Source of the DNA: Halocafeteria seosinensis
Lineage: Eukaryota; Sar; Bigyra; Bicosoecida
NCBI GenBank assembly: GCA_001687465.1
Contig: LVLI01000172.1
Location: forward strand, 62,001 to 126,000
Direction: 5' to 3'
DNA length: 64,000 nt
Shown: one piece after another, positions 29,614 to 48,156 of the stretch
Numbering within the stretch: position 1 is the stretch's first letter
Layout: each line of letters opens with the position of its first letter
Made by a program: the position numbers and the translations under genes
The notes under the pieces: model-generated
The model's database searches: none
What the model saw: the letters and a program-made list of their open reading frames with translations, nothing else
What the model was told of the DNA's origin: nothing

Positions 29614-32538
29614 ATGGGAAGCAGAGATAGGAGGTATCGGTCGTATACCGATACTATCGGCAGTACACTGCGTCTGCATGGGGATCTTCGGGATAATGAA
29701 GCAGAAGTCAAACATCTTCAGGGCATGGGGGCCATCGAATCCGCAGACCAAGAGAAGCCAGACATCTCCGTGGACTTTAAGAGATGGAATATGCACACTT
29801 TGGCAGGAAAGTATCATACATTTCATATTAAGAACAAATACCCCATTCCCGGAGCTGCTATAGCGGATGACTTCTACAGAAAGCATCAGATAGATGACAC
29901 GACCAAAGTACTTGAACGGCTTCGAGATGAAGACACTGTTATCGCTCGAAAAATCGACTCGAAGGTGCAGGTGCACGAGATGACGGAGTTGTCAATGCCA
30001 CAACCTCATTGGATGACAGTAGCAGAACAAACGGAAAAGGTTCTTCAAGATAGACAAAAGCGCTACGAAAGCATAATTGACAGGAAGACCGAATTCATCG
30101 GAGAGCCAAAACTAGTGGCCAGAGTGTTTACTTTGATCAAAGAGAGGAATATCGAGGAAGTAAAGACTCTGTTGACGCAAGGAGAACTCAATGTTAATAT
30201 GTGTGATGAACGTATGCATACAACCTTACTAATGCAAGCATGCAGTGCAGGAGTTCTGCCGCTGGTTGAGGTAAGCAGTTTGGTGCATTCTAGATTACTA
30301 AAACACTGACAGCTAAACCTGCTGCTGCAGATATTCTTACAATTTGGAGCGGATCCTGATTTAGTGAATATTTCAGGGAACTGCGCGCTGCATTTTTCGT
30401 GGGATTCCTGGCTTCAGGTAAATCCACACTTGCCACGGAAAAAATATCAATATAAGGTGGTTTGCAAAATCGTAGAATTATTGGCAAGTTTCGGTGCTAA
30501 TCCTAATATACAGCAATGCGACGGATGGTCGCCGCTGCATTTCGCGGCAATGTATGGACACGAAGAAGCAATTCTTACTTTGCTGAGAACAGGAGCAGAT
30601 GTCACAATCAAGGACGACGATGGAAGAGATGCTCCCGGAATTGCATCCACATTAGTTGAACGGGGATTTGGAAATCCGAAGAAGAGAGAAGCTGCCATTG
30701 GGCTGTTGAACAATTGGCAAGTTATCCAAAAAGAACAGGAGATACGCAACTTTCGCTTAGCTTGGCAGCTGACGTTAGAGAAAAACATACGGGAAATAAA
30801 ACATGCTAACGACATTTCACAGAGAGAAACACAAGTTGGATCTCCTCCCAAAGCCGGTTCAATAGACTTGATGTCGCGCGAAGGAGCTGGAGGACCTGTT
30901 TTCGTTGCTCATCGCGACGCTGATGAGCGGATGTGGGGAGAGAGTACCAACATCAAGCAAATGTTCAAAGATTTTGAGCTAAATCGCAAACTAAAAGGTT
31001 TAGAACATAAAGAAGGTCTGAAAGTAAGCGAGTACAACAAAACACTTCCTGTCCTGCCAAATCAGCAGCAACGGAGGTACGAGCAGGAAACTCGAGAAGT
31101 AGTCTCCTTTGATATTACGTCAGCTTCACCAGGTAGAATGGGCTCTCGCAAAAATACGAAATCGAGTTCAAAAATGCATGATCCGACAATAGAGGACGAA
31201 GAAGTCCAAAAGAGAAGAGCTAGGGCTCAGTGGAAAGAGCACTCTACCTCGACTGCTCCGTCTACAAATGAACTGGTTCGCAGACAAGCCAATGAGGCGG
31301 CCAACATGCTAGCTAGTCAAAATAAAGTAATCAGCGCTGTTAACATGGCAGAGAACGAGTCAGAGAAAGATATTATGAAAAAAGTAAATTTGATGGAAGA
31401 AACCCAGGATGCAATGGAACGCCACCACAAGAAGCAGAAAGCTCAGCTCAAGGAACTTGAACAAGCTAGCGAACAAGTGTCAATAGAAGCTGTTGAAAAG
31501 GATGCAAGCATTCCGAAGAGCCACAGAAATGCTTTCGTTGCTGTTCGCGGTTTATCGAACAGACTAAAGAACGGGGCGAGGAATGTGCTAGAAGACACGT
31601 ATGGCTCTGAAGTTTCCAAGAACATCATGGAGATGACAACAGGTGAAGTGTATCAGCGGAGAAAAACGCAAAATTCCATCCTAAGAAAACCTTGGAGATA
31701 CAGATGTGACCATCGAACGAAAATAGGCTTACCAAATGAGCCAGTGGAAGGATCCATTCCGGGTGTCTCTGCAAATGCCCGAGAAAAAATTAAAGCAGCC
31801 CGACAGGAGAAAGCAGAAAAAGAAGCCGCCTTGGAGGTCGATAACGCCAGTCTCCGCGTTGTACCGCCCGAAGACAACGTTCGCCGAAAGAAACAAACGA
31901 CTCAAGACGATGCTGTCAACAGTGATAGTTTATCCTCCATGGTAGGGGCATATTCCCTGGAGCATAAACGGATGATGGACGGGGAGTTCAAGAAGAAGTC
32001 AATGGATAGTGCGCTGTTACCCTATGAAGGAGACAAAGACCAGCAACAGCTGAAAAAATCAGCAGAAGAGCGCAGCAGGGCATTGCAATCGCTTGGGTCA
32101 GGGTCTAGCGATGTCCCCACTCCATCGGTTGCCTCACAACCATCTGAAACAGCACCACTGAAACGAAAGCCTCCACATGTTCCGAAACTAGTGCCTGCTA
32201 AGCTCCAGGATCAGCTATATGGTGATGCGAGTATGCTGAACGACGAGCCGAGTGCGCTTTCTGCGCAGTCGTTGCATGATCGTGGAGGACTCAAACTCGG
32301 AGAGGGGCAGAGCCTGATGGATCTCGCAAAATTTGACACCGTCGAGTTAACATCGGTAAACCGTGAGGCAGTGACCCCAAATTACGGAAAACGATACGTA
32401 AGGAGGAACACTAAAACGAAGAAGAACTACTACAACCTCGTTCACAAGCAGCCAAAGAAGACAACGGAGATCTTCGGAAAGATTGAAGAACCGTGGGAAT
32501 ATGACGTCTTCAATGCGAAGCTGGGTAACGTCGATTGA
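29614..32538 (+). CDS. Ankyrin-repeat and coiled-coil protein
   Basis: Exons 29614-30270 and 30331-32538 (60-nt intron) give 954 residues. About 200 unassigned residues, starting MGSRDRRYRSYTDTIGS, precede ankyrin repeats spanning about 180-330: TTLLMQACSAGVLPLVEIF, NCALHFSWDS, then DGWSPLHFAAMYGHEEAIL and LLRTGADVTIKDDDGRD. A 25-residue insertion interrupts the repeats (WLQVNPHLPRKKYQYKVV); it begins with a GTAAAT that could be a donor, but reading through fits better. The remaining 600 residues are charged, Gln/Glu/Lys-rich and mostly helical, ending in a conserved-looking block (YVRRNTKTKKNYYNLVHKQ, then EEPWEYDVFNAKLG). No signal or membrane segment. Function unknown; a cytoskeletal scaffold is a guess. 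Its last 29 bp overlap the EDRF1-like coding sequence on the other strand. Confidence 0.75.
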
Positions 32539-39159: not shown

Positions 39160-39850
39160 ATGCCGGAAATCGAGAAAACAAAAGCACCTGCAGGGGGGCA
39201 TGCGGAAGCAAACCAAAAGGATGGGGCGGAAGCGACCCCTGTTAGCGCTTCTCAAGATGTGAATCTGCTTTTGACCCCGTCCGAGTTTTTCCCGACGGAT
39301 CACCACCTGCTTCACCAGGCTTTGAGGTACGTCACTCATTATTGCTCTTCTCGAGCTAGCATATGTCTGTAGGTTTGTCTATGTGACGTTGTTTGTATAC
39401 AGTGGTTCGGAAAAGTTAGAACGCTATGATATTGTCTGGTTTCCGGAGCACAAAGTTGTTCAAGCCCGAGTACTGTTTGGCCAAAACTTGAGTGGTCATC
39501 CCGGCATTGTACACGGGGGAGCCATCGCAAGTGTGTTCGATGACGTATTTGGTGTGCTATTTTTTGCGTTAAGGATGGGGACAGGCTTTACTGCTAACCT
39601 TAATGTAAACTATAAACTTCCAATCCCGGCGGGAAGAGACGTGCTGTACCAAGTTGAGTTGCAGAAGGTAGAAGGTAGAAAGGTGCAACTCAAAGCGTTT
39701 ATTTACGATGCGGACAATACCTCAAGGAAGCTCGCTGATGCCACTGCATTGTTCATAATGAAGAATGTCCCATCGAGTGGCGATGCCATTCATAGAATGG
39801 AGTCTCACCTAGCGGACCTGGAAACGGAGGCGTATCGCCGCCATTGGTAA
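39160..39850 (+). CDS. Hotdog-fold thioesterase (4HBT/THEM4-like), short form
   Basis: Exons 39160-39326 and 39403-39850 (76-nt intron) give 204 residues. The hotdog core includes SGHPGIVHGGAIASVFDD, where the HGG loop and the following Asp are family features, then GTGFTANLNVNYKLPIPAG and ADATALFIMKNVP. Such enzymes hydrolyse acyl-CoA thioesters. A short hydrophilic leader precedes SEFFPTDHHLLHQALR; it lacks a targeting signal, so a cytosolic location is inferred. The paralogue at 47213 shares the core at high identity and has its intron at exactly the same codon (within the AGT of LR-SGS). The large ankyrin-kinase gene lies between the two copies. Confidence 0.88.
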
Positions 39851-40246: not shown

Positions 40247-43200
40247 ATGGAGAGGCCTTATCGCCTACTGGGGCGCCAGACACTCTTGGCGGAGGTGAGG
40301 AAGATACACGGTGTCATTTGCCGCAAGGAAAGCGCGAGACGGCGTATTGACGCATTTCTGAAGAAGTACTCCATCCAACATGTAGACAACATTCGGAGCG
40401 AGTCTGTACGTATACTTCTTGGCTTTGAGGTGGCGTGCAAAGAAATTTCGCAACGTAGCATGTACAGAAGGGTGGAACGCTGCTGCACTACGCTCTTCTT
40501 CTGGAATTCCTCGATCTTGCCCGGCTCCTAATCGATGTATACAAAGCAGATCCTCATATCCGAATTTGGGTACGTCGTGACTCAATTATGAAATGGGGAT
40601 GGACACGTAGTGGTACCAATCAGTGCTGCCCGGCAGACGGGGGATACATCAGTACACATTGCCAGCCGGACGGGCAACTGTAAGGCTCTCACAATGCTTG
40701 TGGATGAATACAAAGTCGAGCCGAACACCCCAGCCTCGGTAAGTAGCATTGGGACAGAGTCCACTTGATCTAGCCCACGTGGAAGGATTACATGCACTTC
40801 TTCCAGAATGGGAAGACTGCGCTACATCATGCGGCTTCAAGCGGTAAGATGGAATCTGCAAAATTGCTTATGGAAAACTATAAAGCTGACTGCAAACTGG
40901 GCGACAACGTGAGTCCATGATATGAAGCTTGGTAGGCTGGTAAAAAAATACATCGCTCTCCGTGGTCTCAGTTCGGCTGTACTCCATTACATGATGCTGC
41001 CGCACATGGAAGGAAGGAATTGCTCCAGCAACTGATCACAAGCAGTGATGCTGCTCTTTGCACTAGTAGGACACAGGTACGATGGTCTGTTATCTCACTA
41101 CATACTCGTGAGTCTTAATGGGTTGACTCTTGGCAGGAGGGTCTAACACCGTTGCATTTGGCATCCAAGGAAGGACAGACAGCAGTGGTTGACCTCATGC
41201 TTAAGTACTACATCAAAGATGCTAACATTAAAAGTCAGGTTAGTCTAAGGACGTGCAGATTGAATTTTAGACTGATGTGGTGCTCTACTTGTCCTTACTA
41301 TGGTGGTGCAGCATGGCTGGACCCCGTTGCACATGGCCGCTCGAGCCGGACACATGAAAGTCATTCAAACACTGATAGATACGCATCAAGCAGATAAACA
41401 GTGCCAAAGTGTGGTACGTGGCCACTTGTGGATACAAAGATTCGCTTGAGAACCGGTAGTACAGTATGCTCATCTGTGGCCCTTTCAATTTACAGGATGA
41501 GTTTACACCTTTGCATTTAGCGGCACTGAACGGGTATAGCCATGTTGTCCAGTTGTTTGCGGGAGATTACAAGGTGGATGTCAACGTTGTGTCTCAGGTA
41601 TTTTCATGAGTTCAGTCGTGTAGACAATGGTCCAGAAGTGCAACCTGACATTTTATTTCATGTATGTCCAGGGGGGATGGACTGCTCTTCATCTAGCATG
41701 TCAAAATGGGCATTCGAATGTAGCACGAATGCTTACGGAGAAATACTCGGCGAATAGCATCCCGCGAAGCCAGGTAAGAGAGGGCCCCATTTTCGCTTCA
41801 GGTACCGCTGAATTGAGCTGATCATCTTTACATGTTGAGTCTTCAGCTTGGTTTGACTCCATTACACTTGGCGTCTGCGGGCGGCCATCAAGACACCATA
41901 AGAATGTTAATAGAGGAGTTTGATGGGGACGTCAATAGTACAAGTTCTGTAAGTTGAAATTGCTGCTGATGAGCTGTCTCCGCACATGCACTTGCCCATT
42001 TTGCACTCACGAGACAGTTTGGGGCTACACCCTTGCATTTGGCATCTCAAGGAGGTCATAAGAAAGCCATAAGAATGCTTGTTGATGAATATAGGGCGAG
42101 CCCAAAGGCAAAGGTGGTACGTTGCATCAAAACCTGTTGGCGTCAAACGGAGCAGTGCTGCATTTGGGATCGGATTGCAGAACGGCTTGTCCTGCCTGCA
42201 TTTGGCATGTATCCGTGGACATTCGGATTCTATCCGCCTTCTTATAAATGAGTATAGCGTGGATCCGCATACACCGGAAGAAAACGTTAGTCGGAGTATT
42301 GGAACCTTGATGTTGTGTTGCGATGCTATGGTTAAGAGTACCATGTGATGTGCAGTGCTCGAAGACACCCTTACATCTCGCTTGCGAGAATGGGCATGTG
42401 GCGGTCGTTCGACTCTTGATTAACGAATATGGTGTTGATCCATGTACTAAGGATAGTGTGAGTGAGCATCCACTTCTCATTGGCAATCGTGAGTCCCTCT
42501 TTTATTGTACTACTCCTATATCCAGAGTGGCTGTATCCCGTCCGATTCTGTCACCGGTAGAGACTCCAGTTCTATAGTGGCGTTCCTGACACCTGTAATG
42601 GAAGACGAAAGACCCCTATCTGCTATATCGCGTAGCCAAACAATGCTGTACTCCCGGCATCCGAATTGCTCCAGAGAAATCTTGGATCTGGTTGCCAATA
42701 TATCGAGGAAAGGCAGACATGCCATCCAGGAATTCTTAGCCTCAAGCAATGAAGTTCAAGCACTTCGCTCCCTGGAAGAATTGGAAGATTATCTCGTTCG
42801 TAGCCTTCTTGATGATCGAGGCGAACGTGAGCAGTTATTAACGGATATTATCAAACTTGGAACAACAGAAGACAATATTGCAAACGTTCAGGGTGTCCTA
42901 CGGCAAGTCAGCAACTGTAACGGTTCGCAGCTCGCTGCAGTTTGCGAGGAGAGAGGACTTTTTCTGAAAGCTGCTCAGATGTACGTCAGTGTTGATGACG
43001 TGGGGCGCTGTCTACAAAAGGCGGAAAACGTTCCCTACAGTGCCTTATCCAATCTCTTGTCAAAGTACAACTCCAGAGAAGCGAAGCAACTTCTTTGCAT
43101 GATAGCTCAAGCTGACTCATTTGACATTTGTGGGTTTCTTATTAAATTCATTCAGGAGAATGGACCCTCTGCGTGTGACTCCCTCGTGGGGCTATGCCAG

Positions 43201-46200
43201 GACGAGACGAGCGCACAGTGCCTTATTGGAAGTGCCGAACATGAGCCCAATGGTAGCCCTTGTCCCAAGCAACTTAATTTGTCTCGCTTGGAAAGCTGTC
43301 ATTTCGAAGCCCAAGAATTGCGTCGAAGCCTTTCAGAGCAAGATTTCCTATATCCAATTTTACTGCACTGTCTTAAGATATTCCAAGATCTTAGAGCAAG
43401 CATCGAGCGGGAGAAGCGAATGTTGGGCGAAGGACGAACCATCCTGCAGAGGGCGCAAGCAGAATTGGCAGATCGCCGCCACCATTTGCATGAAACCGTT
43501 CGATGTAATTTAGAAGCCCATGAGTCACATCTTCAGCCAGACGAGATCGACAAACTGGTGGCTCAGAGAGAGCAAGCGGCTTTGTACTTGCGCACCACTC
43601 TGACTGACATGATTGAACGAGCACAACAGCTCCAAACACTGGAGCAAAAAGCTGTGACACTATTTGATTTCCTGTCACGGTTTGGAAAGAAAATGGGTGA
43701 GCCTCTGGATGAGGAGCTTCGAGGCGAACAGGATCAACATACCGTAGTCGGAGATGAAGGGCATTCAAGAGGGAAGGAAGATTGCATTCAGCAGCTTGAC
43801 ATAAAGGTGCACTTGGAGAAAATTCATCATCTGAGGCATCGGCAGGAGGTGTTGGTTAACTATTGCGAAGAGAAATTGAATTCTGAAAATGTGAACCTTC
43901 GGCAACTCTCTAGAGACTTTGCACACGCTAGGCGTTCGGTATTAAGTCTTACTGAGTGCTCTTATCAGTGTCTTGCAACGTTCAAAACTGCATGGACAGA
44001 AACCTGGGACCCTCGTAACGGTGGTCTCCTAGGGGATGAAAAAGTGCCACAACTGTTGGCGGACTGGGATATAAAGTTGAAACAAGAGCACAAGATTCTA
44101 GAGCAATTTGAAAACGCAAAACAACAATTGAAGACGCTGAAGGAGATCGAACCGAAACTCCAGCAGTTGTATGATGAACGGGATGACTTGCAGAATGAAC
44201 TCAACAAAGCACGGAGAAAGCAGCAACGGTCGAGAGTCTCTCTGCTGCAGGAGAAATTAACTGCCATGAATGACGAAACTGATACAGCTGAGAAACACAA
44301 AGAAGAGATCTATGAAATGTTTTCTACTGGTCCCATCCAGGGATGCTTCCCAGAACTATCATACCAAGCTGCACATATCAGAGACGTGGCGACTAACCTT
44401 GCTGAGGTAGATGTGGATGGCCTGGATTGGAATGTTTCCTTGGAGGACTTTATTGTGGACAAGGAGATCTATTATGGTGGGTCCCGTCTATTAATTTGTC
44501 GAAACTCGATTGGGGTGTCATCACGAAACTGGGCGTTGAAGGAGATTCCATTAAGTATGGGTAACTCCAATTCTTTCAATAGTCGGTTCCGCAGGGAGTA
44601 TCGCGCACTGCGTGCATTCCGTCGCCATCCGCTTCTAATGCAGGTAGAAAGAGCTTTTATTGATGAACGAACGAATAATGCGTATTTGCAAATGCCGTAC
44701 TACGAACGTGGGAATCTTCGCTCATGGGTCGAAGGGATGCAGGAAGAAGTGAACAGTCATCAGCAGCAGGCTGGTGCTACTTCAGAGGAATGGTGGCAAA
44801 ATCTTCAAGTGTATTTTCGCCAAATCCTTCATGCATTGAGCTATGTCCACTCTTGTGGCTTTGCCCATCGGGATATGAAACCTGAGAACGTATTAATAGC
44901 GGAGGAAGGGAGACTAGTTATCACTGATTTCGATGTCTGCCGACCGACGCACACCTGTGCCGGCGCGAACATGACGACAACAACGACCACCAACTTTGGT
45001 ATACAAGGCACAATGGGATATGCAGCGCCTGAGTCCTTCCATGTTGAGAAACGACACCAATATCCAGAAGCGTTAGACGCCTGGTCAGTCGGAGTCATGC
45101 TATTGGAAGTAATTTGTGGAAAGCGGTTCGAGTGGCATAATGATCGCCAACAGCTTGTTGATCGTGCCAGCGGAGTTCCCTTCAAGCTTCCTTCGCATCA
45201 TTTGGATGAGGTCCAGATGGAAGCGTTCGATATTGCTTCTAAACTGACGAAACCCGAAGCTCAGAACCGTATGACAATCGACGAAGCCCTCTGTTCCTCC
45301 TTTTTTAGCGGGCCATTATTCTGCAGAGGGGCAATGGAAAAGAGCAGTTTAGATACCACACTTGAAATGGTCACGGATCATTTTAACATACTAAGGAAAA
45401 CGCGATCCACTGCGTCAACGCGTAAGATATCAATCCAAACCCACAGAAAAACATCTGGAGAAGATGCCGACGATGCTTCTGAGAGAGAAAAATCATGCTA
45501 TGCAATACTTCGCAAAATTAATGAAATGGAGGGTGCAGACATTACCAAGAAATGGGAATTTGTGATGGAAGAAGAGACATGGATGCTGTCCTCAGTTGTG
45601 CGCCAGGTAGTTGTTCCCTCCGTAGTTAGAAAGAAGTTTGGTCCCCTGTTAGTTTGTGGAACTGCTGAAGCCGAAGCAGAGGAGCAATCAGAAACCAAGG
45701 AGAGTGACTCCTTGCAACTTTTTGGATTTTACTCAGTTCCAACCGATAGCACCATCTCTGGGGAAAGGCGATGGCTGTTTCGTGCTCTTGGGCGTCTTCT
45801 ATACAAATGTATGCTTGAAAGCATTCTATTTCCGGTATCCTTGGCACCTTCCGTCTGCCGATGCCTCCTGGGACTCGACAAAATTGAGAACCCGTTGTAT
45901 ATTTCGCTTGGGCAAGCTCACGTGATGGCTTTACTGAAAGCGTTCAAGCCAGACTTCCTTAACTACTACCGCTCTATCCTGATACATTCCTATGGAAAAG
46001 GCTCTGAACACTTAACTGTGGACATGGTTCCTGGCTTCGATGCGAACATGGCGGAGGAGCACCTAGTGGAAGATACGCCTTTATCGGACGGGAACAAGGA
46101 GCGTGTCATTTTGGGAGCTATCGAGCAACAACTCGTTCGTTCAAGGAGGGATAATCTGTTGGAGCTCACTCAAGGATTCAGAGAGTGGGCGGAAGAGTGT

Positions 46201-46890
46201 GGTAGCCTTTCGGCATTGAGCCGCCTGTCAGAATGGCATATTAACAGCCTCTTTTTTGAAAATGACTTTATAGACCGAAAATCCTTAATGAAGACGCTAG
46301 AGTGGGACGATTCCTGGGTAGAGAAAGAGCGCAGTATAATGCAGGACCACTTTAAGTCGCTTTTCGAGAAACTTCCTGAGACAAGCATGCGTATGTTTCT
46401 TTTGAAGTCGACAGGGTCTTTGCGGATGGACACCTCAAACGCGTCTTGGACTCTAATTGTCCGAATTCCCAGATGTAAGACAAAGAAGGATACAGCAAAC
46501 ATATATTTTTCGTCTGCAAACAAGGCCATGTTTACTCCTTTTTTCTCAAACGTTGATGATTTTGGTAATGCTCTCTTGAAATCGCTCTCTCAGAGCGACG
46601 TTGAAACAGATTCTGAAAGCATGAATGTTGCAGAACAAGCCCGGCTGTTTCGAGTCCTGCGGGAAGCTGGAGATATTCGCTCCGGAGCCGTTTTTAGCTG
46701 CGGCAACTGTGGGTTCGCTTATGCTGTAGGTGAATGCGGTGGTCCTATGGAGATTGGATCATGCCCCAAGTGCGGTTCTCACATCGGGGGGCAACAACAC
46801 AAAGCTGTAGCGGGGAATTGTTATCGTCCTGACCTCGGTGATGCTGCCGCCGCTGCCTACCCCGGTGCAGCTCCTGCTCAAGAAGAATAA
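40247..46890 (+). CDS. Ankyrin-protein kinase-HECT-like-RZ finger multidomain protein
   Basis: Fourteen exons, all phase 0, give 1,916 residues: 40247-40405, 40468-40569, 40637-40738, 40807-40908, 40972-41076, 41137-41238, 41312-41413, 41496-41597, 41672-41773, 41847-41948, 42018-42116, 42181-42285, 42356-42457 and 42526-46890. Exons 2-13 each encode one ankyrin repeat (33-35 residues, for example GWTPLHMAARAGHMKVIQ). The last exon holds a helical region, coiled coils (about 750-1060), a kinase at about 1100-1365 (WALKEIP, HRDMKPENV, DFD, GYAAPE), a HECT-like region at about 1535-1845 (WLFRALGRLLYKCML, LSDGNKERVI, FLLKSTGS) and an RZ-type finger at about 1850-1895 (CGNCGFAYAVGECGGPME, then CPKCGSHIGGQQH). 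RZ fingers occur in RNF213 and ZNFX1. No Cys is found where the HECT active site would be. A ubiquitin-linked sensor or signalling role is inferred from the domains. Confidence 0.85.
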
Positions 46891-47212: not shown

Positions 47213-48156
47213 ATGGCGAGCAGGACCTATGGGCTGCTGAGCAGCTTGAGACCCATCGTGGCGGCTGGTACTGTGGCGACGACAACGGCATGGACGAGCA
47301 CCTCCAGGACTCAGGAATCGCAGAAGAATCTACCCAGTGTCGTTCGACAAGACGTGAATATCTCGAATCGTGAATGGCTGCAAATTGCTGAAGTTCTGCT
47401 TGATAACGATAAACTAGGCGATACCTCGAAAAGGAAGCAGCTGGCAACGCAGATATGCCGTCATGTCCAATCACAAATACCGTCAGCGGACACTTCCAAG
47501 AAGCGTCCGGACAAGTCAGTGCCTTCGGCTAACACTACAGTGGATCCAAAGAGAGACTTTCACCTTTCATTGAGTATGTCAGAATTCTTTCCCACCCAAC
47601 AGCATTTACTGCACCAAGCCTTAAGGTACCGTTTTGTTCCTCAAAATAAGCCGAGTTCGCACCTTCCGCACTGATGTTTTCTGCCTACTGCAGTGGTTCC
47701 GACAAATTAGAGAAATACGATGTAGTATGGTATCCTCGGCAGCAGCTCATTCAAGCTAAGGTTCGCTTTGGGCAGCATCTCAGTGGACATCCCGGTATTG
47801 TTCATGGGGGAGCTATTGCCAGTGTGTTTGATGATGCCTTTGGTGTACTCTTCTTCTCTCTTAGACTGGGCACAGGCTTCACTGCCAACTTAAATGTCAA
47901 CTATCGAAGCCCTATATATGCTGGTAGAGATGTGCTTTATCAAGTGGAACTAGAGGAGGTAGACGGCAAGAAAGTCAGGCTGAAGGCCTCAGCTTATGAT
48001 GCTAATGACACTTCCCACAAGTACGCTGACGCAACAGCTTTATTTATAGTGAAACATGTACCGTCTAGCAATGACGTCTTAGGAAAGATGAACGAGTATC
48101 TTAGTGAATTAGAGGAGGAAGCTCTACAGAGTAGGAAAGAGAAAGGAGGGCAGTAG
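47213..48156 (+). CDS. Hotdog-fold thioesterase (4HBT/THEM4-like), N-terminally extended form
   Basis: Exons 47213-47625 and 47694-48156 (68-nt intron) give 291 residues. The core repeats that of the gene at 39160 (SGHPGIVHGGAIASVFDD, GTGFTANLNVNYRSPIYAG, ADATALFIVKHVP) and the intron interrupts the same codon. It carries about 85 extra N-terminal residues. These begin MASRTYGLLSSLRPIVAAG, basic, Ser/Thr-rich and free of acidic residues for about 35 positions, which looks like a mitochondrial (or plastid) targeting peptide. The pair therefore probably supplies a cytosolic and an organellar acyl-CoA thioesterase. The tail is charged (SRKEKGGQ). It converges on lactate dehydrogenase with only 30 bp between stops. 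Confidence 0.88.

Follow-up and report, generated by a model that had tools for sequence, protein, structure and literature searches.

HACE1 and HECTD1, like the protein described here, combine ankyrin repeats with a HECT fold; unlike it, both keep the HECT cysteine and are not known to have a kinase or an RZ finger. ZNFX1, which carries an RZ-type zinc finger, reportedly works by a ‘split-site’ mechanism, a term found in the title of one paper. In Arabidopsis, KEG (KEEP ON GOING) brings a RING ligase, a kinase, ankyrin repeats and HERC2-like repeats together in one chain (PMC11020294, in its available part). For RNF213, the accessible portion of PMC12075652 describes Cys4462 and His4483 as a catalytic pair without a role in zinc binding, gives Cys4451, His4455, Cys4471 and Cys4474 as the zinc ligands, and places E2 docking on the C-terminal domain, outside the RZ finger. 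At the level of gene layout, the brown-algal ROCO genes, as set out in the available part of PMC11378527, have a single leucine-rich repeat (LRR) in each 72-bp phase-2 exon and have been put forward as candidate immune receptors built by shuffling.

The locus we describe lies on the forward strand (40247–46890) of a 64,000-nucleotide window of Halocafeteria seosinensis DNA—the whole stretch that was analysed, and part of contig C116 in a genome of 30.6 Mb and 605 contigs, in which a 16-base 18S motif had no exact match. In our model, 14 spliced exons form a single open reading frame, 1,916 residues long, that brings together twelve ankyrin repeats, a protein kinase domain, a HECT-like domain and an RZ finger (Table 1). 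The 13 introns are all GT–AG, 60–82 nt long and phase 0; the splice model bears out the coordinates, length and exon number of an earlier note on this DNA, and the domains and their order also stand as given there, with Pfam matches above the respective cut-offs. On balance, and with modest conviction, we favour the reading that a single gene here encodes a multidomain RZ-type (transthiolating) E3 ligase with a HECT remnant, a kinase and ankyrin modules.

KEG, in which an E3 ligase, a kinase and ankyrin repeats share a chain as they do in the predicted protein, is the nearest precedent, so that the general idea of joining these activities is not new. It differs in its RING and HERC2-like repeats and in domain order, and no HECT or RZ domain is named in the available part of the source (PMC11020294); in our protein, Pfam gave no RING match. 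RNF213 and ZNFX1 share the RZ finger with its Cys/His pair, whereas the HECT remnant, kinase and ankyrins are particular to the chain described here, in whose 462-aa and 1,454-aa parts Pfam matched neither an AAA core nor an SF1 helicase. The combination, presented as novel in the earlier note, is therefore less isolated than was claimed, with KEG and RNF213 as partial precedents (PMC11020294 and PMC12075652, as far as these are accessible); what stands is the joining of an RZ finger to a HECT fold, no description of which was found in the open-access literature, represented mostly by titles and the openings of abstracts.

Table 1. Predicted features of the ankyrin-kinase gene (positions within the window)
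Feature	Position	Strand	Basis
Exon 1, 53 aa, start codon, without known domain	40247..40405	+	splice model
Exons 2-13, one ankyrin repeat apiece, all phase 0	40468..42457	+	splice model, Pfam
Ankyrin exons 2-5	40468-40569, 40637-40738, 40807-40908, 40972-41076	+	splice model
Ankyrin exons 6-9	41137-41238, 41312-41413, 41496-41597, 41672-41773	+	splice model
Ankyrin exons 10-13	41847-41948, 42018-42116, 42181-42285, 42356-42457	+	splice model
Exon 14, 1,454 codons + stop	42526..46890	+	splice model
Coiled-coil-like heptad stretches, exon-14 residues about 281-602	43366..44331	+	rough heptad score
Protein kinase domain	44521..45306	+	Pfam match from model position 24; motifs located
HECT-like domain, Pfam match over 35-244 of 306 model positions	45745..46428	+	Pfam, own-genome HECT profile
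Putative site of lost HECT catalytic cysteine, SSANKAMF	46510..46533	+	alignment with other HECT domains
RZ-type zinc finger	46681..46818	+	Pfam ZnF_RZ-type, motif alignment
RZ putative nucleophile Cys, residue 1866	46735-46737	+	alignment with mouse RNF213
RZ putative general-base His, residue 1887	46798-46800	+	alignment with mouse RNF213

The gene model was picked from among many open in-frame joins on the basis of splice signals and ankyrin register. Alternative in-frame acceptors are few and shift the length by a few residues: exon 2 could instead start at 40459 or 40471, and a start of exon 13 at 42365 would give a protein of 1,913 aa. At the 5′ end, 40247 is the sole ATG upstream of the exon 1 splice site in that open frame. 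Each of the twelve repeat exons (99–105 nt) holds a single ankyrin repeat at constant phase 0, and Pfam recognises Ank in 11 stretches across them, above cut-off. Repeat exons of phase 0 with lengths that are multiples of three could be skipped, added or swapped with the reading frame preserved; frame-keeping alone follows from the exon lengths, and it is the real use of such exchange that we infer. The resemblance to the brown-algal ROCO genes lies in the single repeat per exon and the constant phase; the differences are LRR, phase 2 and a GTPase core on their side, and ankyrin, phase 0 and kinase plus ligase parts on ours (PMC11378527, in its available part). A search of the open-access literature for an exon-per-ankyrin layout returned nothing.

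On either side of the gene, and on its strand, lies a thioesterase-like frame (39326–39847, with a 4HBT match, and 47650–48153); the two are 71% identical over 144 residues, an arrangement that looks like a pair of tandem duplicates with the gene between them. A neighbouring frame of 742 codons (30310–32535) also contains ankyrin repeats.

Moving along exon 14, the region upstream of the kinase contains coiled-coil-like heptads, as judged by a home-made and rough score uncorrected for the many windows examined; hints of clathrin repeats and of a CARD N-terminal to the kinase fell below Pfam cut-offs and were set aside. The kinase domain itself is matched firmly (Pfam Pkinase, E 2.7e-37, above cut-off), and the Lys of WALKEI, the HRD Asp (HRDMKPEN) and the Asp of a DFD motif are all present. 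DFD replaces DFG, and the glycine loop, which lies upstream of the Pfam match, is degenerate; we regard the domain as a probably, though not certainly, active Ser/Thr kinase. The NCBIfam matches were mostly to kinase domains, every one of them below cut-off.

The HECT-like region is a more delicate assignment. Pfam accepts it, as the earlier note had it (E 4.8e-9, above cut-off, partial), and a profile drawn from six of the genome's own HECT domains (for two of which the exons were joined only roughly) scores 15.8 bits against the region, where the best of 2,000 shuffles reaches 8.2, and 11.2 bits against the whole of exon 14; the best stretch of the match, which carries most of the score, is only 59 positions long. 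Against this, a single-sequence search of PDB chains with the region gave no match even at E 10, and a comparison of exon 14 with its own genome matched kinases and none of the other HECT genes among the 32 of 109 candidates that were scored. Setting the support from Pfam and the own-genome profile against these two missing matches, we judge that the HECT-like domain is real but strongly diverged. Elsewhere in the genome, the frames that carry HECT domains on C164, C406 and C57 and at a second locus on C116 (position 227983) run uninterrupted for 3,654 to 6,537 codons, unlike the studied gene with its many short introns.

At the HECT catalytic column our protein has Ala, where all eight of the other aligned HECT domains of the genome have Cys; the alignment covers eight of the 11 other HECT loci, those on C481, C27 and C567 being left out. 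A profile of the C-lobe, built from seven other HECTs, gives a marginal 4.7 bits (nine of 1,000 shuffles score as high, the best at 7.2), and its match ends just ahead of the catalytic column, with an ungapped extension by eye again placing Ala there; since the C-lobe match is marginal, it is uncertain which residue stands exactly where the cysteine was lost. The HECT fold is thus recovered by profile and the catalytic C-lobe cysteine is not, and by this comparison the region should not function as a HECT ligase. With this cysteine gone, it is the RZ finger that should account for whatever ubiquitin transfer there may be.

The RZ finger is matched by Pfam above cut-off (ZnF_RZ-type, E 1.3e-13), again upholding the earlier assignment. 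Its VGECG and GGQQH (GGxxH) motifs align with Cys4462 and His4483 of mouse RNF213, and the zinc ligands, as predicted from sequence, are four Cys arranged as C-x2-C twice, in place of C-x3-H plus C-x2-C; the same four-Cys form is found in a ZNFX1-like RZ finger of this genome. All six predicted functional residues (nucleophile Cys, His and four zinc Cys) are kept, as they are in that ZNFX1-like finger. The earlier note spoke of a ubiquitin module in the chain; of the two candidate parts, the RZ finger retains its predicted catalytic residues and the HECT-like region has Ala at the catalytic column. A search of the genome returned three RZ matches, namely the studied gene, a gene on C262 and, below cut-off, one on C258. 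The gene on C262 is called ZNFX1-like from a cysteine-rich, NFX1-like stretch read by eye, for which Pfam gave no match. That on C258 is a frame of 5,093 codons whose divergent RZ finger falls below the Pfam cut-off and has lost the general-base His; its size and RZ finger make it a candidate RNF213-like giant, and no other Pfam domain was found in the 1,055-residue piece examined.

What the sequence supports directly is thus the set of domains, a HECT cysteine missing by alignment, and an RZ finger with its catalytic residues retained; E2 docking, gating by the kinase and an ankyrin ligand are what we infer. The ankyrin solenoid would bind a ligand or substrate, and the helical linker and probably active kinase could then pass the signal on or hold it in check, through phosphorylation of either their own chain or a target. 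The HECT-derived fold, devoid of its catalytic cysteine, may serve as a scaffold or as a platform for E2 docking: given the plan of RNF213, where the RZ finger supplies the cysteine and another domain docks the E2, the simplest reading is that the HECT-derived lobe would do the docking. By analogy with RNF213, ubiquitin would pass from the E2 to Cys 1866 of the RZ finger and on to the target, with the help of His 1887. The sequence is silent on what the ankyrin repeats bind; the sensor of intracellular microbes proposed in the earlier note is a guess by analogy, and any antimicrobial role is conjectural. A model from AlphaFold with single-sequence input has a pLDDT of 36 and is uninformative.

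It may be asked whether the protein is a ligase at all. If both the HECT-like domain and the RZ finger were structural only, the chain would be an ankyrin signalling kinase, a reading with which the missing HECT cysteine agrees, as does the point that not all zinc fingers are ligase-active (PMC13061254, in its available part). We consider this unlikely, though a serious competitor: the finger keeps six of six predicted functional residues, among them the Cys and His that have no zinc role in RNF213, and retains the very His that the divergent copy on C258 has lost.

A separate question is whether the ankyrin exons and exon 14 belong to one gene, the junction between exons 13 and 14 being predicted from splice signals alone and the least secure link in the model. 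Two adjacent genes could instead be envisaged: an ankyrin gene that retains intron 13, reads through to a stop ending at 42577 and terminates there, followed by a kinase-HECT-RZ gene whose start codon would be the first ATG in exon 14. The strengths of the splice sites leave some room for such an arrangement, as the donor of intron 13 (leave-one-out score 4.4) ranks below 11 of the 12 others and its acceptor (3.0) below nine of 12; both nevertheless lie inside the observed ranges (2.6 to 9.7 for donors and −3.3 to 9.9 for acceptors). Across the whole window, scores as high are reached by 8% of all GT and by 16% of all AG. An exon-per-repeat ankyrin gene on C320 also seems, from the sequence read by eye, to have no effector exon at its end. 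Set against this, intron 13 resembles the other twelve (GT–AG, 68 nt, phase 0) and leads in frame into a frame of 1,465 codons, its acceptor being the sole one 40–139 nt past the donor that joins the exon-14 frame. Moreover, two genes would leave their coding parts only some 20 bases apart (42578–42597), with little space for the end of one and the start of the next, and for this reason fusion is favoured. We hold it very probable that the ankyrin exons and exon 14 form one fused gene, and the two-gene arrangement quite improbable. Exon 14 had been expected to open with a half-ankyrin, which would have lent the junction extra support; this was rejected, as 389 of 1,000 shuffles score as high.

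Least credible is transfer through another residue, with the HECT lobe docking the E2 and the RZ finger reduced to a binding module: the one Cys left in the C-lobe-like stretch (Cys 1779 of the full chain, residue 1317 of exon 14, and the only Cys between exon-14 residue 1271 and the RZ finger) lies 17 residues N-terminal of the aligned catalytic place and in no TCF-like motif.

Returning to the RZ-type ligase that we prefer, its possible origin may be framed more boldly, as a tentative and rather doubtful proposal. A HECT ligase would have lost its active cysteine, and an RZ finger added to the chain would have taken over that function, so that the HECT lobe would dock E2~ubiquitin and the RZ cysteine accept the ubiquitin; the kinase in the same chain and an exon-modular ankyrin receptor would exert control, giving a one-chain sensor that recognises, phosphorylates and ubiquitinates, assembled from ankyrin exons interchangeable across the genome.

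Searches for relatives beyond this genome were made with several parts of the protein. The HECT-RZ region, compared with a set of 5.8 billion proteins, matched two among 8,000 scored candidates, with 16–19% of the query aligned, both of which carry helicase-type Pfam domains together with RZ. No homologue of the HECT part was seen among the candidates scored from that set, none of the pre-kinase region among 7,997 scored candidates, and no orthologue of the RZ finger alone among 10; an orthologue of the whole protein was likewise not found among those scored. Such absences weigh little, because only candidates sharing common short words with the query were scored. Viral contigs gave 16 pattern matches in one search and 1 in another, of which not one was confirmed.

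The exon-per-repeat layout recurs elsewhere in the genome, with several ankyrin exons of one repeat each at five other loci (C320, C598, C27, C504 and C554) and one candidate exon at C523. When five ankyrin regions were fetched, four of them (C320, C598, C27 and C504) showed exon-sized repeats in a single register, running from AG to GT; the fifth, on C161, runs as one long frame of at least 3,187 codons. Among 14 further 3-kb ankyrin loci, one of which proved to be C598 again, C554 has four repeat exons, C523 one and C450 a single poor candidate, and ten have none. The best candidates at other loci are mostly 102 nt long; the scans sought only multiples of three without phase shift, so a universal phase 0 does not follow from them. 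A search of the genome with a single-repeat ankyrin model scored 150 of 644 candidates; of these 150, 101 fall in frames no longer than 200 aa, spread over 54 contigs, and 42 in frames of 400 aa or more, spread over 20 contigs. Given the many that lie in short frames, the exon-modular class may be large and genome-wide, a short frame by itself being no proof of the layout.

If these readings are correct, the exon-per-repeat layout known for LRRs in brown algae would extend to ankyrin repeats, and would do so in a genome where a single search for the light-harvesting family PF00504 gave no match. The pairing of an RZ finger with an E2-docking domain would become testable in a HECT-RZ piece of roughly 465 residues, far smaller than RNF213. 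The RZ finger itself would be a portable catalytic module, one that can be joined to scaffolds beyond those of RNF213 and ZNFX1—here, to that of another class of ligase.
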